A DNA stretch of 35,189 nucleotides from Terrimicrobiaceae bacterium (GTDB lineage Bacteria > Verrucomicrobiota > Verrucomicrobiia > Chthoniobacterales > JAATET01), in assembly GCA_028713285.1 (NCBI GenBank), contig JAQTOP010000001.1:1-35189 (forward strand), in the 5' to 3' direction. Shown piece by piece: positions 20,629 to 25,830 of this stretch (the stretch's first letter is position 1; each line of letters starts with the position of its first letter). The notes under the pieces are model-generated. The model was not told the DNA's origin. It made no database searches and saw only the letters and a program-made list of their open reading frames with translations. The translations under genes and the position numbers were made by a program.

Positions 20629-20703
20629 ACTCGTTCTCTTACTCGTGCTCGTGCTCTTTTCCAAAGGAGGAGCATGAGAAAGAGCAAGAGTATGAGCACG
20701 AGA
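20629..20703. repeat. Imperfect inverted repeat of CTCGTN-type hexamers
   Basis: The left arm (20629-20660) is built of CTC-N-T-N units such as CTCGTTCTC and CTCGTGCTC. The right arm (20670-20703) is built of the complementary GAGCAN/GAGNAN units. Around three quarters of positions pair. The units drift at the same hexamer positions in both arms. This looks like an interspersed genomic repeat that can fold into a long hairpin. Confidence 0.7.
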
Positions 20704-20716
20704 TGGGCGGCTATGT

Positions 20717-20740
20717 GTTTATTTAAACCGCTCTAGAGCG
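20717..20740. repeat. Two abutting palindromes upstream of the recombinase
   Basis: GTTTATTTAAAC (20717-20728) has 5-bp arms with a TT centre. CGCTCTAGAGCG (20729-20740) is a perfect 12-bp palindrome with AAAC and TTTC flanks that nearly extend it. They lie 80 bases before the serine recombinase start. Serine recombinase attachment and crossover sites are short imperfect palindromes next to the gene, so this is a candidate, not a proven, site. Confidence 0.4.
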
Positions 20741-20820
20741 TTTCAAGAAGTGATGGCCCAATTCACCAAGCCTCAAAATTCCCGAAAATTCCGCTTAACC
20801 GGTCGCCCCGAAAACCGGAT

Positions 20821-22557
20821 ATGCTCGGGATGGAACACAACATCCCACCCGAAAAGAAAACCAATGTAGCCTATAGCTACATCAGATTCTCTTCCCCGGC
20901 GCAGATGAAAGGCGACAGCCTAGGGCGCCAGACAAAAGCCAGCGAAGAATACGCCCGAGAGCACGGTCTATATATCGATGGCAATCTGCATATTCAGGAC
21001 CTCGGTATCTCGGCCTTCCATGGTAAAAACGCCACGGAAGGCAAGCTCGCCGGGTTCCTGACCGCCATTCGGACCGGACACGTGCCAGCCGGAGCTACCC
21101 TGCTGGTCGAAAGTCTGGACCGTCTCAGCCGGGAACAGGTCACCGATGCGTTGACGCAATTCCTCCAAATCATTAAGGCGGGCGTCATCGTTGTCACCCT
21201 GATCGACAAGATGGTTTACAGCCTGGCGAGCTTCAACGAGAACCCCGGAAGCCTCATGCTGAGCATTGTCTTCATGATGCGGGCGCATGACGAATCAGCC
21301 ACAAAGAGCAAGCGCATCGGCAAGGCTTGGGAGAAAAAGCGCCTGATGGCGCAGGAAACCAAGGCCCCTCAGAACAAAAACCGTCCCGGCTGGCTGGATC
21401 TCGTCAAGAACCCCGACGGAACCAAATCCTATGTGGTCATCCCCGAACGCGCTGCCGTCCTGGTGCGCATGTTCGAGCTTGCGGCCGGGGGTCTGGGCAA
21501 ACGCTCCATCGCCCGAATCCTCAACGCGGACGGAGTGGAGTATTGGAAAGGAGGCAAGTGGGCCGAAAGCACCCTCCACTTCATGCTCAAATGGCCTGCG
21601 GCGATGGGTATTTACCAGCCCTGCCGTCTCGACCCGGAAACCCGCCGCCGGATTCCTGAAGGTCCGGCCATTGAAGGGTATTTCCCGCAGGTTATCTCCA
21701 ACGACCTGTGGCAGCGCGCCCAATGCCGCACGCAGGCTCCCCGAGGTCCGCGCCGCCCGAGCACCCGCAACCTTTTCACCGGACTCGTCATCGACGGCTT
21801 CAACGGCTGCAAGATGCACTACAACGAGAAGATCGGCACCGGCACGAATCACTCGTATCTCTGCACGGCCCGCATGCGCCCGGACGGAATCAAATCGCAG
21901 ATGCTGCCCTATGGCCTGTTCGAGCAAACCGTCCTCGAACACCTCCGGGACCTCGACTGGTCCAGCCTCGTCAACAAAGGCCCTGACCAAGAAACCGCCA
22001 GGCTCAACACCCAGATCGCCGACGCCGAAGTCCACCTTGGAAAGTTAGACGCGGGCATCGAAAAATTCCTGGACGACCTCGCGGAACTGCCCGACCTCCT
22101 GCGCAAGTCTGCCACGGCGAGGGCGGCCAGAATGGCTGAGGAGAGGGAGGAACTCCAAGTCGTACTCGAAGAACTCCGACGGCAGCGGGATCAAGTCGCC
22201 ATCGCCCGCAATTCCATGACCGCGGGCGTCGAGGAATTCAAAACCCTGATTGAATCGGGAGACCCACAGAGCCGCCTTGCCCTGCAATCCGAAATCCGCC
22301 GCCGGGTCAAAGAAATCAGCGTTCGCACGGAGAAGACCCGTCAAGGCAAGCGCGCGAAAATCGCGATCTTCTTCGTAAATGGAGCCGCCACCTGGGTCAC
22401 CACGAAGGTCATCGTGCGCGGTCGAGCTTCGTCACAGGCGATCGAATTTGAAGTTCCCGGGAGAGGCCTTCATCCCTTCGACGACACCTCCGGCATCGAA
22501 CGCGAGCCGGACGGGCAAACAGCCGATCAGCCTTGCGACAAAAAGATGGAGGCATAG
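20821..22557 (+). CDS. Large serine recombinase
   Basis: Site-specific DNA recombinase of 578 residues (569-575 if a later start is used; ATG at 20830 is an alternative). The N-terminal resolvase domain begins VAYSYIRFSSPAQ, with catalytic Ser24 after Arg22, then DSLGRQ, LLVESLDRLSREQ and a long helix with ATKSKRIGKAWEKKR. The recombinase domain follows (ILNADGVEYWKGGKWAESTLHFML) and then a region where a zinc ribbon is expected. Only two cysteines remain there (NGCKM and YLCTA), so the usual four-Cys site is degenerate. A coiled coil (about residues 390-480) completes the large-serine-recombinase layout. It most likely integrates or excises the element that follows. No strong ribosome site precedes it. 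Confidence 0.9.
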   Translation: MLGMEHNIPPEKKTNVAYSYIRFSSPAQMKGDSLGRQTKASEEYAREHGLYIDGNLHIQDLGISAFHGKNATEGKLAGFLTAIRTGHVPAGATLLVESLDRLSREQVTDALTQFLQIIKAGVIVVTLIDKMVYSLASFNENPGSLMLSIVFMMRAHDESATKSKRIGKAWEKKRLMAQETKAPQNKNRPGWLDLVKNPDGTKSYVVIPERAAVLVRMFELAAGGLGKRSIARILNADGVEYWKGGKWAESTLHFMLKWPAAMGIYQPCRLDPETRRRIPEGPAIEGYFPQVISNDLWQRAQCRTQAPRGPRRPSTRNLFTGLVIDGFNGCKMHYNEKIGTGTNHSYLCTARMRPDGIKSQMLPYGLFEQTVLEHLRDLDWSSLVNKGPDQETARLNTQIADAEVHLGKLDAGIEKFLDDLAELPDLLRKSATARAARMAEEREELQVVLEELRRQRDQVAIARNSMTAGVEEFKTLIESGDPQSRLALQSEIRRRVKEISVRTEKTRQGKRAKIAIFFVNGAATWVTTKVIVRGRASSQAIEFEVPGRGLHPFDDTSGIEREPDGQTADQPCDKKMEA

Positions 22558-22571
22558 CACCAAGTATTTCT

Positions 22572-22955
22572 ATGAAAGCCTCACCTCGTTCGTTTCAGCT
22601 TTCCTCCGACGCCCTGCGCGCCCTCAAAATTCTGGAGGGCCTCTACATCAACAAAAGCCGCAAGAACATCGTCTCCGACGCCCTTGTGTGCACAGCCAAC
22701 GCGGCAGCGGCCCAGCCGCCCATCCAATCCCGCCGCCTCGAAGCCTCCGATGTGCTTGCCCTCCAGGTCGAGGTTCGCGAACTGGAAAAAATCGCCCGCG
22801 AGGTTCGGCGCGAACTCCTGCGCGTCCGCCCCGCCGAAAAACCCTCCGCCGAAAAAATCACCAAGGCCATTCACAAGGCTGATGCCACCCTTGACGAAAT
22901 CACGCACCTCCGTCAAAAAATCGCCAAAATGAACGATCCTGACGCCTCGCAATGA
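22572..22955 (+). CDS. Ribbon-helix-helix protein, possible mobilisation accessory factor
   Basis: The ATG at 22572 gives 127 residues. The start RSFQLSSDALRALKILEGLY followed by SRKNIVSDALVCTA fits the ribbon-helix-helix DNA-binding fold: a strand, then two helices. The rest is charged and helical (ELEKIAREVRREL), likely coiled coil. Its stop overlaps the start of a relaxase-like gene (ATGA), the arrangement expected for a relaxosome accessory protein of MobC type. Function is inferred from fold and neighbour. Confidence 0.65.
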   Translation: MKASPRSFQLSSDALRALKILEGLYINKSRKNIVSDALVCTANAAAAQPPIQSRRLEASDVLALQVEVRELEKIAREVRRELLRVRPAEKPSAEKITKAIHKADATLDEITHLRQKIAKMNDPDASQ

Positions 22956-23870
22956 TCAAGCTTACCCCGAGGTCGTCTCGGAAAGCATCCAGCGCCATCA
23001 CGCTCAATGATCGCATCCGCTACATCAGCGACCGGAAGGACCCCGACCATATCGGCAAGCTTATTCATCGGGCCAAGAACTACAACTGCCCTGCTCAGTC
23101 CGGTGGCGACTTCGCAGATGAGGTCATCCGCCTCCACGCGAAATATAAGAAACGCCGCGAAGGTAAACGCGGCAAACGTTCCTCCCGGCTTTTTGAGGAA
23201 ATCATCTACTCCACCCCCGAGGGGGGTCTATCCGACGAGGGAGGAACGCGAATATATCGAAAGCCAGATTATCGCTCTGGTCGCTGAGCAAACCGCCTGC
23301 CGCTGCGCCTGGCACATCGACGCAAATGGCAGGGCTGATCTGCATATCCTGATGGCTTCAAAAAACAACGACGGACAAGTCACACTCTGGGCCAATTTCG
23401 GAGGAAAAGCCGGGCGGCATATCTATGCCGAATTCGACCGGTTGGACGAAGAAATCGCCACCCACCTCAACCCCGAGAATGATCCACGGTTCCCGATCAA
23501 ATCTGCTGCCGCCATCCGCCGGAAAAACAACATTCCGTTCGCGGATGAACTGGCTGAAAAATACCCCGATCCTATCACCGCCGACACGCTTCTGGATACC
23601 CTGACCATCCTCGGCTACACCGTCCCCAAGGTCACCAAGAAGACCATCAGCGTCATCTTTCCCGGCAAGAAACGTCCCCACCGGTATAATATCGAAAACC
23701 TCCTGCTCCAACTCGAACTCGCACACGAACGCATCCGCCTGCGCCTCCGGTCCAAACCGAAGGGAAAGCCCGAGAAGAAACTCGAAAATCCCTCCACCAA
23801 TACCCCCGCGCCGCCCGACGCCCCAGAAGACAGAAAGCGAAGATCGGACGCTCCCGGCGACATCACCTAG
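22952..23870 (+). pseudogene. Relaxase-like mobilisation protein, frameshifted at a G6 run
   Basis: The frame from 22952 begins MIKLTPRSSRKASSAITLND, the usual opening of MobA-type relaxases, and runs to FEEIIYSTPEG before leaving phase at six Gs (23221-23226). Its own stop is at 23287. The next frame carries on as GVYPTREEREYIESQI, then CRCAWHIDANGRADLHILMA, which matches the relaxase third motif (HxD...xH). It ends at 23870 with a Pro/Lys-rich tail. With five Gs the two parts read through exactly, giving about 305 residues. The motif His set is degenerate (an Asp replaces one His). It may be a decayed gene, a phase-variable gene, or a sequencing error in the run. A relaxase nicks oriT; adjacent hairpins could be its target. 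Confidence 0.55.
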
Positions 23871-23887
23871 CCAGCCATGCCCTCGTT

Positions 23888-24177
23888 TCCGGGCAAAAAA
23901 TGCCCGGATTAGCAAAAAACGTAATCGTTTTGGGTAAAAAGCCGTGATCGCGCCAATTCTGGCGACTCACAACGTCCTCGAAACCGGCCCAGAAATGGCC
24001 GGATTGGGCCGAAAACATACTCGTTTTCGGTCCAGAACCCACCCGGAATAGGCTGAATGCCTATTCCGAATCGGGTTCAAAAATTATCGAGAACCAAGTC
24101 CCGATAATCGGAAGAATAGCAAGACGGGGATATTCGCTACATTTCCGCTACGCTACAAATCAGCTACGAATATCCCC
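23888..24177. other. Dense hairpin array, candidate origin of transfer or replication
   Basis: No gene is seen here. Stems: TCCGGGCA/TGCCCGGA (23888-23908), AAAACG/CGTTTT (23916-23931), CGCCA/TGGCG (23951-23964), CCGGCC/GGCCGG (23984-24002), CCGAAAAC/GTTTTCGG (24009-24030). Next come CGGAATAGGC/GCCTATTCCG (24044-24068) with an outer GAACCC/GGGTTC (24035-24078), and ATTATCG/CGATAAT (24083-24108). Last is GGGGATATTCG/CGAATATCCCC (24126-24177), whose loop region carries four GCTAC units. The first two hairpins and the fourth and fifth form a diverged tandem duplication with a 95-base period. Position beside mobilisation genes suggests an oriT or single-strand origin. Confidence 0.55.
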
Positions 24178-24461
24178 ACTTGCAAAAGGGGAGCAGAGCA
24201 CCCCCCTTTGGACCCCCCGGCACAGCCATCGACAAAACCGATGCGGTGCCCTCCGCCATCAACGGCGCATGCACTCTCGCCACAGGAGGGCTCGAATTCG
24301 CATGCAGGAAGCGAGCTAAAAATCGCCGCGTCCGCCCCGGAAGGGGGACTAGCAGAAAGCGATCCCGTAGCCTGGAAATCGTTTCCCGTTTGGCGAATTT
24401 CGCGAAGCGTCTTCTGGCACGGCTTTCGCCTACCCGGCCAGACGGACAATGGCGCGATGAT
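24178..24461. other. No recognisable gene before the AAA+ ATPase
   Basis: A frame is open from 24180 into the ATPase gene, but its first 94 codons are Arg/Pro-rich, low in hydrophobic core residues, and unlike the ATPase that follows. I see nothing else supportable in this stretch. It probably holds the promoter of the ATPase. Confidence 0.5.
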
Positions 24462-25349
24462 ATGAAAATATTTAGCCACCAAGCCACCGCCTACCGGGAG
24501 TTGCTTGCCCGCGCCCAAACCTTCTTCACCGGACACTGGAAAGGGCTGAATCTCCGCTGCCGCTGGCACAGCCTTGTCATTGGTCCCACCGCAAGTGGCA
24601 AGACTGCGCTGGCGTCCATTCTTGCGGAAGAAACCGGCGCTGCGCTCCTGCGCATCAATGTCACCAACTGGATGCCGTCGGGTGCGAATAACCGCGCCGT
24701 CGCCGAAACGCTCGAAACCATCGTCAGCCACATCGCTGCCCACAACCGATCAATTCTCTTCTGCGACGAGCTTGATAAAGTTTACCACGAAACTTCGTGG
24801 ATGGGTTACATCCGGGGGGAGCTTTTTGAAATTTTAGACGGACGCCTGCCCCTCGGAACAAAAGCACCAGCATTCGGAGAAGAGGATGGTGAGGCTCAAT
24901 TCCCAACCGAGAAATCTCTCAGCGAAAAACTCCGCTCCACCGTCTTCATCGTGGGCGCGGGCACCTTCCAGCAATTCTACGAAACCCGACGCTCGCCATC
25001 TATCGGCTTCAACCCTACCGAGCCGGAATCCGGCATCGGCCCGACCGCGGATTACATCGCACAAAAACTACCGCGGGAATTGACCACGAGGTTTAACAGC
25101 CAGTTGCTCTTCATTCCCGAACTCTCGCCCATCCACTATCAAGCCCTCGTCCGCGAAGCGGAAAAATCTCTTCCCGACTGGCTGGTCCCGGCGTTCCGGC
25201 AGGTCGCCGCCCGGCGCATGGCTCAGGCCATCGCCGTAAAGTCCGGCTGCCGGTTTCTCGAAGAAGCCGTGATGGACGCCCTCCAGATTTCCCAACCGCC
25301 ACCCCAGCCAGACGAAGACCCCTTCGCCTTTCTTGAAGGCGATCTGTGA
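24462..25349 (+). CDS. AAA+ ATPase
   Basis: The ATG at 24462 gives 295 residues. The Walker A motif is GPTASGKT (residues 41-48). Walker B is ILFCDELDK (Asp102, Glu103), followed by a long second region with GELFEILDGRLPLG, and sensor-like FIVGAGTF. RELTTRFNSQLLFIPELSP has the Arg expected of an arginine finger before the lid domain. The layout recalls ClpX and related clamp-loader-like AAA+ proteins, but I do not recognise the family. It is followed 60 bases later by an SSB gene, so a role in element replication or mobilisation is plausible. The upstream open frame is judged not to belong to it. Confidence 0.8.
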   Translation: MKIFSHQATAYRELLARAQTFFTGHWKGLNLRCRWHSLVIGPTASGKTALASILAEETGAALLRINVTNWMPSGANNRAVAETLETIVSHIAAHNRSILFCDELDKVYHETSWMGYIRGELFEILDGRLPLGTKAPAFGEEDGEAQFPTEKSLSEKLRSTVFIVGAGTFQQFYETRRSPSIGFNPTEPESGIGPTADYIAQKLPRELTTRFNSQLLFIPELSPIHYQALVREAEKSLPDWLVPAFRQVAARRMAQAIAVKSGCRFLEEAVMDALQISQPPPQPDEDPFAFLEGDL

Positions 25350-25409: not shown

Positions 25410-25793
25410 ATGCTTGAAACTATCGTCGTCGGCAATATCGGCTCGGTGCGGTTCGCCCGCGCCGGGGAAACCAGTGTCCTCAACCTCTCGGTCGCCAGCT
25501 CCCGGAAAATCAACGACCGGGAATTCACCGACTGGATTTCCGCCAAGCTCTGGGGCGCGCGCGGAGAAAAACTCCGGGAACACGTCAGCGTCGGCATGAA
25601 AATTCTCCTGAAAGGACGGCCCGAAGCCAAAGGCTTCCAAAAGGGGGACGGAACCGTGGCCGGCGAACTCGTGCTCCATGTCAACGAACTCGAATTCCTG
25701 AGCGCCAAAGCCAAGCCGCCGCAACCCGAACAGCTCCCGCTGGAACCACCCCCAGCCACCAAACCCAAAAAGCGAAAAGCGGATACGCCGTAG
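25410..25793 (+). CDS. Single-stranded DNA-binding protein, short form
   Basis: The 127-residue product has an SSB-type OB fold: VGNIGSVRFARAGETSVLNLSVASS, then FTDWISAKLWGARGEKLREHVSVG and ILLKGRPEAKG, ending in LHVNELEFL. A short Pro/Lys-rich tail follows, without the acidic DxDIPF end that binds partners in housekeeping SSB, so this looks like the accessory form carried by mobile elements. A terminator with a GAAA loop follows 9 bases after its stop, ending the recombinase-to-SSB stretch. Confidence 0.85.
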   Translation: MLETIVVGNIGSVRFARAGETSVLNLSVASSRKINDREFTDWISAKLWGARGEKLREHVSVGMKILLKGRPEAKGFQKGDGTVAGELVLHVNELEFLSAKAKPPQPEQLPLEPPPATKPKKRKADTP

Positions 25794-25802
25794 CCGATCA
25801 GC

Positions 25803-25830
25803 AAAACGGGCGGGAAACCGCCCGTTTTTT
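25803..25830 (+). terminator. Intrinsic terminator after the SSB gene
   Basis: AAAACGGGCGG (25803-25813) pairs with CCGCCCGTTTT (25818-25828) around a GAAA tetraloop, followed by Ts to 25830. It is a strong Rho-independent terminator, nearly symmetric, so it may work from both sides. Confidence 0.93.

Follow-up and report, generated by a model that had tools for sequence, protein, structure and literature searches.

What does an array of hairpins do between a relaxase-like gene and the genes of an AAA+ ATPase and a single-stranded DNA-binding protein (SSB)? Such an array lies at positions 23888–24177 of the window, i.e. the whole stretch of 35,189 nt analysed here, which opens a 102-kb contig in a 3.5-Mb genome of a Terrimicrobiaceae bacterium. 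The original prediction proposed an origin of transfer (oriT), a single-strand origin or perhaps a structured RNA; the gene order that it described, with the relaxase-like gene upstream and the AAA+ and SSB genes downstream, was confirmed (Table 1). Comparison of sequences and folding make it highly probable that the array is an oriT region together with its flank, belonging to an integrative element that is probably mobilizable.

Table 1. Features of the window, with the evidence on which each assignment is based
Feature	Position	Strand	Evidence
Large serine recombinase, integrase of the element	20821–22557	+	Pfam Resolvase E 5.7e-16, Recombinase E 4.3e-14; PHROG integrase E 1.9e-64
MobC-like accessory gene (start codon inferred)	22572–22955	+	without Pfam match; homologue before the G774 relaxase
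Relaxase of a family outside Pfam/NCBIfam, with a frame change in the G6 run 23221–23226	22952–23870	+	homologues, fold comparison
Hairpin 1, first of duplicated unit A	23888–23908		folding, hairpin counts
Hairpin 2, AAAACG/CGTTTT, second of unit A	23916–23931		folding
Hairpin 3, CGCCA/TGGCG and outer stem	23944–23970		folding
Hairpin 4, CCGGCC/GGCCGG, first of duplicated unit B	23984–24002		folding, unit alignment
Hairpin 5, 12-pair stem, second of unit B	24005–24034		folding
Hairpin 6, long stem in two parts	24035–24078		hairpin counts
Hairpin 7, ATTATCG/CGATAAT, 12-nt loop, weak	24083–24108		hairpin counts
Conserved module of the putative oriT, full covariance-model match	24110–24213	-	E 8.2e-8 in 315 kb; E 9.2e-7 in the whole genome
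Long inverted repeat of the putative oriT, four GCTAC (GTAGC on the minus strand) in the loop	24119–24183	-	fold z −4.8; pair changes, four elements
Predicted nick, TCCCCGTCTTG|CTA	between 24120 and 24119	-	motif conservation; position inferred
G-rich hairpin, preceded by GGGGTCC, common to MOBV oriT regions	24185–24216	-	pattern GGGG..CCCC..GACCCC; fold
AAA+ ATPase	24462–25349	+	Pfam AAA E 2.2e-9; 57–58% identical copy in second element
Single-stranded DNA-binding protein (SSB)	25410–25793	+	Pfam SSB E 2.5e-9; 81% identical copy in second element

Folded as single-stranded DNA, the region 23870–24190 reached −75.8 kcal/mol, compared with −39.6 kcal/mol for dinucleotide shuffles (z −10.3); with RNA parameters the z-scores were −9.4 and −8.6, one per strand. 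When the 102 kb were covered by 409 tiles of 250 nt, the array proved to be the top fold outlier of the contig (tile 24001, 31.6 kcal/mol past shuffles), followed by tile 69001 (31.0 kcal/mol) and, at a distance, by the next one (20.6 kcal/mol; sd 4.7). Tile 69001 falls in the non-coding stretch before the relaxase gene of a second element, i.e. in the matching array of that element. The array region was also first by hairpin counts. The predicted hairpin array is thus borne out by the folding z-scores and the contig-wide tiling, and the four GCTAC units do exist, placed in the loop of the last hairpin (24136–24166). A further conserved hairpin occupies 24185–24209, just past the end of the array as first delimited. 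The third most over-structured tile, at ∼41.0–41.25 kb of the contig between the two elements (L021:5990–6240), contains GGGGCGGTGGAACGGGGC/GCCCCGTTCCGCCGCCCC and is possibly a terminator or a junction.

The duplication within the array is genuine: the units at 23881–23937 and 23976–24034 gave a local alignment score of 27, above all 5000 shuffles (maximum 17.5). The accompanying claim, that several base changes between the copies are compensated across the stems, did not hold up. A two-sided change (G-C to C-G) was found in just one of 20 pairs, a count equalled by shuffling in 269 of 500 cases; five more pairs are paired in one unit copy only and the remainder are invariant or at a gap. With a single pair, compensation between units A and B was rejected as evidence of structure, and the two copies give almost no sign of selection on pairing. 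Support for a conserved structure has therefore to come from comparison between elements.

Such comparison is made possible by the relaxase. It belongs to a family that the libraries do not contain: apart from a spurious NABP match (0.26), Pfam gave nothing at E up to 10, and there was no NCBIfam family, no match to the profiles PF03432 (Relaxase, MOBP) and PF01076 (Mob_Pre, MOBV) and nothing among sequences of solved structures. Homologues were identified in three other genomes, G774 (an Akkermansiaceae MAG, contig CANHPN010000038.1), G125 and G132. Read through its frame change, the window relaxase aligns with protein P0012 of G774 at 35% over 204 aa (E 3e-30); the match to the G125 homologue is 40% over 259 aa (E 1e-57). 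The homologues in G774, G125 and G132 are each one open frame; the frame change in the six-G run of the window gene may be an assembly or sequencing error or the mark of a broken copy, and the window relaxase may thus be defective. The MobC-like protein is similar to the product of the gene immediately preceding the G774 relaxase (30% over 125 aa, E 5e-7). Beyond these four elements, the only ones of this relaxase family found, protein and DNA searches of the plasmid and phage collections returned no relatives, and neither did peptide-pattern scans with the AAA+ and relaxase proteins over the genome and viral contig collections.

A structural model of the relaxase (pLDDT 49.6 overall, poor outside residues 10–140) was compared with known folds. 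The four matches with Z of at least 5 are all conjugative relaxases: MobA of R1162 (Z 7.7), NES (7.0), MobM (7.0; rmsd 3.5 over 123) and TraI (6.0), all with Z below 8. A viral Rep (Z 4.1) and unrelated chains (3.9 or less) ranked below them. We regard this ranking as supportive, not conclusive. Residues Y26, H123, D132 and H134 are invariant across three members of the family, and the tyrosine and histidines would be the catalytic and metal-binding residues.

The conserved structure beside these relaxases is a module of two hairpins, the last one of the array and the G-rich one that follows it. A covariance model (R1) was built from the G774, G125 and G132 sequences alone, with the window sequence left out; in the 3.5-Mb genome its sole match with E < 0.01 was the minus strand of 24110–24213, which is close to the relaxase gene ending at 23870, and the same association is seen in G774, G125 and G132. 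In the alignment of the four elements two-sided changes occur in 10 of the 25 module pairs, a count that leans toward structure because the alignment was fitted to it, and 93.8% of the pairing cells can pair, versus 48–63% with the partners slid. The search for homologues near the same genes that had been suggested as a check thus had a positive outcome: in three other genomes, homologous structures showing two-sided changes accompany relaxases of the same family, so that the stated refuting condition, a lack of such structures near related elements, did not apply. Of the order, 210 genomes were searched; three of them contain the relaxase family (the genome of the window, G125 and G132), and the same three contain the module; strict filters matched G125 and G132 only, and the genome's own copy appeared with laxer filters. 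It is this coincidence of module and relaxase family, together with the match of the leave-out model, from which we argue for an oriT, a reading now well supported for the last hairpin and its neighbour. The loops of the long repeat have ACTAC units in G774 and G125; these units and the GCTAC units of the window are possibly protein-binding repeats.

A degenerate pattern of the repeat hit 44 stretches in the genome contig collection, about the number expected by chance for 19 fixed bases over 31 spacings, with the full repeat and a relaxase only at the Akkermansiaceae locus on the G774 contig. One further hit of the covariance model, at G125:C29 (E 0.002), proved to be a palindrome with no relaxase nearby and was taken as chance.

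The module also bears on the idea of a structured RNA, attenuator or terminator cluster between genes of one operon, which we hold to be very improbable. Both strands fold well as RNA, but Rfam gave no match at gathering or permissive thresholds, no promoter-like site was seen, the three terminator-like sites compare with 1.9 expected from shuffles, and among the four elements the module shifts relative to the genes and stands on either strand relative to them. Without an Rfam match or a promoter-like site, the RNA alternative of the original prediction gained no positive support.

For an oriT one expects an inverted repeat that adjoins a nick-like core and is conserved among relatives, and this is what we observed. 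In all four elements the order on the module strand is a G-rich hairpin, the long inverted repeat and then TCC(N)[CG]RTCTTG followed by C or T. The motif TCC(N)[CG]RTCTTGY occurs once in the 102 kb and at the equivalent place in G774, G125 and G132. Counts of the nick motif in pattern-selected loci were discarded, as the selection itself enriches the motif. Reported nicks include CTTG|CA, TGCTTG|CCA, RYGCTTG|C and TATCCTG|C, and in MOBP-type nick regions the cut is at ATCCTG|C (RP4-like) or CTTG|C (pRS01, Tn1549, pRJ6) (PMC7755788); the predicted TCTTG|Y core resembles the CTTG|C nicks in shape. The window is also like the MOBP regions in that a long inverted repeat leads directly into a (C/T)TG|C core and that the relaxase has a conserved Tyr and two His; it is unlike them in that the relaxase has no Pfam or NCBIfam match, a G-rich hairpin precedes the repeat and several hairpins follow it.

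The position of the cut can be compared with MOBV systems. The second element, located on the same contig on the other strand, carries genes of a serine recombinase, a Mob_Pre (MOBV) relaxase, AAA+, SSB and restriction proteins, and the array of G082 likewise lies beside a MOBV (Mob_Pre) relaxase. At the foot of the long hairpin both arrays carry TAGTGAGTTATAC or TAGTGTGTTATAC, which occurs once in each contig stretch: TAGTGAG or TAGTGTG, then TTATAC, in the same order as in the module. The nick of pMV158 is TAGTGTG/TTA (PMC5090054). In these two related elements the MOBV nick can be read by homology, and it sits where the module has TCTTG|Y. Like the oriT of pMV158 and other MOBV systems (MobM; IMESag-rpsI; PMC5090054), the window has inverted repeats with a nick site, here a predicted one, at the base of a hairpin, beside a relaxase gene in an integrative element, and the MOBV nick sequence itself is carried by two relatives of this element type, one of them on the same contig. 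What sets the window apart from MOBV systems is a relaxase that the Mob_Pre profile does not recognise and a TCTTG|Y core in place of TAGTGTG|TTA.

The G-rich hairpin links the two kinds of array. The 102 kb contain GGGG-loop-CCCC with GACCCC after it just twice, once in each array, and the G082 array (L031:728) has it as well; in 338 kb of unrelated loci the pattern was absent. By inspection, G125 and G132 have weaker forms. On its own the hairpin folds no more strongly than shuffles (z −0.9). Its presence in both arrays of the contig and in G082 means that it accompanies two unrelated relaxase families; one possibility is that it is a shared part of the transfer machinery.

Conservation of the motif and the position of the G-rich hairpin point to the minus strand as the strand that would be cut. 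An alternative keeps the same oriT but puts the cut on the plus strand at the right arm of the repeat, in CACTTG|CAAAA (24182|24183), so that the AAA+ and SSB genes would enter first and the array last. In its favour, the plus-strand CTTGCAAAA is identical to what PMC7755788 quotes as the match to the pRS01 nick region, the two arms of the repeat are almost symmetric, with weak model matches on the opposite strand in G774, G132 and G125, and the extra hairpins of G125 and G132 would fall on the same side as those of the window. Still, the core has changed on the opposite strand (CTTGA in G125, CTCGA in G132), while TCTTGY on the module strand is kept in four of four. The MOBV arrays, for which homology reveals the nick strand, also have the G-rich hairpin on this side of the repeat. 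We therefore consider a plus-strand cut unlikely.

Hairpins 7 to 1 pose a separate problem. In 250 nt on the hairpin side of the predicted nick the window reached z −8.1, the second element −6.0 and G082 −6.2; on the same side of the nick the values were −4.8 in G125, −4.0 in G774 and −1.2 in G132, which is not structured there, and in four of the six elements the other side of the nick is structured as well. By inspection, the hairpins share no sequence similarity between elements. Several stem-loops on one strand downstream of a relaxase gene are the arrangement expected of a single-strand origin, and in ICEBs1 the several stem-loops of sso1 come immediately after nicK, the relaxase gene (PMC4595007). 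Like sso1, the stretch contains multiple hairpins and follows directly on the relaxase gene of an integrative element; unlike sso1, the window hairpins adjoin the putative oriT itself and have no sequence relative among plasmids or phages. A single-strand origin at 23888–24108 is plausible, and judging by position and structure the stretch could, on a tentative estimate, be the start of complementary-strand synthesis.

Should the whole array be only such a single-strand origin, the oriT would lie elsewhere. The location and stem-loops shared with ICEBs1 and the strong structure of the 250 nt adjoining the nick would fit, but the conserved module follows the relaxase family and carries a nick-like core, and no match to a described sso emerged from 72,556 plasmids and 50,697 phages (E 0.1). 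In the window and G774 the inverted repeat with its core comes after the relaxase gene; in G125 and G132 it precedes the MobC-like gene. The latter placement counts against the oriT claim in that it is not after the relaxase; at the same time it is the usual place of an oriT, which argues against a sole single-strand origin. On balance that reading is quite improbable.

The surroundings are those of a mobile element. GC content falls from ∼19 kb, where the element begins, and the element encodes its own integrase and relaxase, as an IME does. Only ∼15 bp lie between the recombinase gene and the MobC-like gene, which leaves the array as the sole large non-coding stretch next to the relaxase. 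Downstream of SSB there are a helix-hairpin-helix protein and type I restriction genes. No type IV secretion system was found among the main proteins scanned (window and contig to ∼54 kb). The element is integrative and probably mobilizable. The AAA+ gene was rejected as a marker of arrays, since homologues with 30–36% identity usually have no array in front of them; for the 58% identical copy the array precedes the relaxase instead.

The serine recombinase upstream and the broken relaxase frame are compatible with another idea, that the hairpins are recombination or attachment sites of the recombinase or decayed, functionless repeats. Around the G774 module the scanned genes include the relaxase but none recognisable as a recombinase, and the structure is kept by two-sided changes between elements; we find this idea extremely improbable.

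Several other observations were made in this part of the contig. Just before the serine recombinase gene, 20642–20746 contains a 17-nt inverted repeat and a palindrome (fold z −4.0), a possible operator or attachment site. Both elements have the hairpin AAAACGGGCGG/CCGCCCGTTTT after SSB (25803–25828 in the window; minus strand in L022). The two related elements face each other at ∼19–72 kb of the contig, with different relaxase families and both with type I restriction. Between them, at ∼41.9–46.0 kb (L021:6909–11030), is a CBASS-like set of genes for a DncV-like cyclase, a patatin-type phospholipase and a DUF6791/ThiF protein, adjoining a UvrD/GajB-like helicase with PD-(D/E)XK domain and an M78 peptidase domain; the set and its neighbours form a defence island between two mobile elements.

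With the array read as an oriT region, transfer would proceed as follows. The relaxase and the MobC-like protein would recognise the long inverted repeat, and the relaxase would cut the minus strand at the predicted site (24120|24119). The 5′ end held by the relaxase would lead the transferred strand; hairpins 7 to 1 would be first into the recipient, ahead of the relaxase genes, which would be read antisense. Once single-stranded, the hairpins of 23888–24108 would extrude and would probably act as a complementary-strand start or as a docking site for transfer proteins.

Mobile elements are recognised through their transfer origins and relaxases. The relaxase and putative oriT described here are invisible to Pfam, NCBIfam, PHROGs and Rfam, and such elements therefore likely go uncounted; the covariance model and the relaxase alignment provide means of finding further ones. 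To our knowledge, little is known about the conjugation biology of this bacterial group. The elements carry anti-phage defence (type I restriction, with CBASS nearby), and the array is likely the oriT from which a defence-gene-carrying element would start its single-stranded passage between Verrucomicrobia-type bacteria. More speculatively, Verrucomicrobia might have an undescribed relaxase family with its own class of oriT, and their integrative defence islands might share a transfer region assembled from interchangeable parts: an inverted repeat specific to the relaxase, a G-rich hairpin that is common to them and found also with unrelated MOBV relaxases, and a multi-hairpin start for the complementary strand on the entering strand. 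The question raised is why two unrelated relaxase families keep the same extra G-rich structure.
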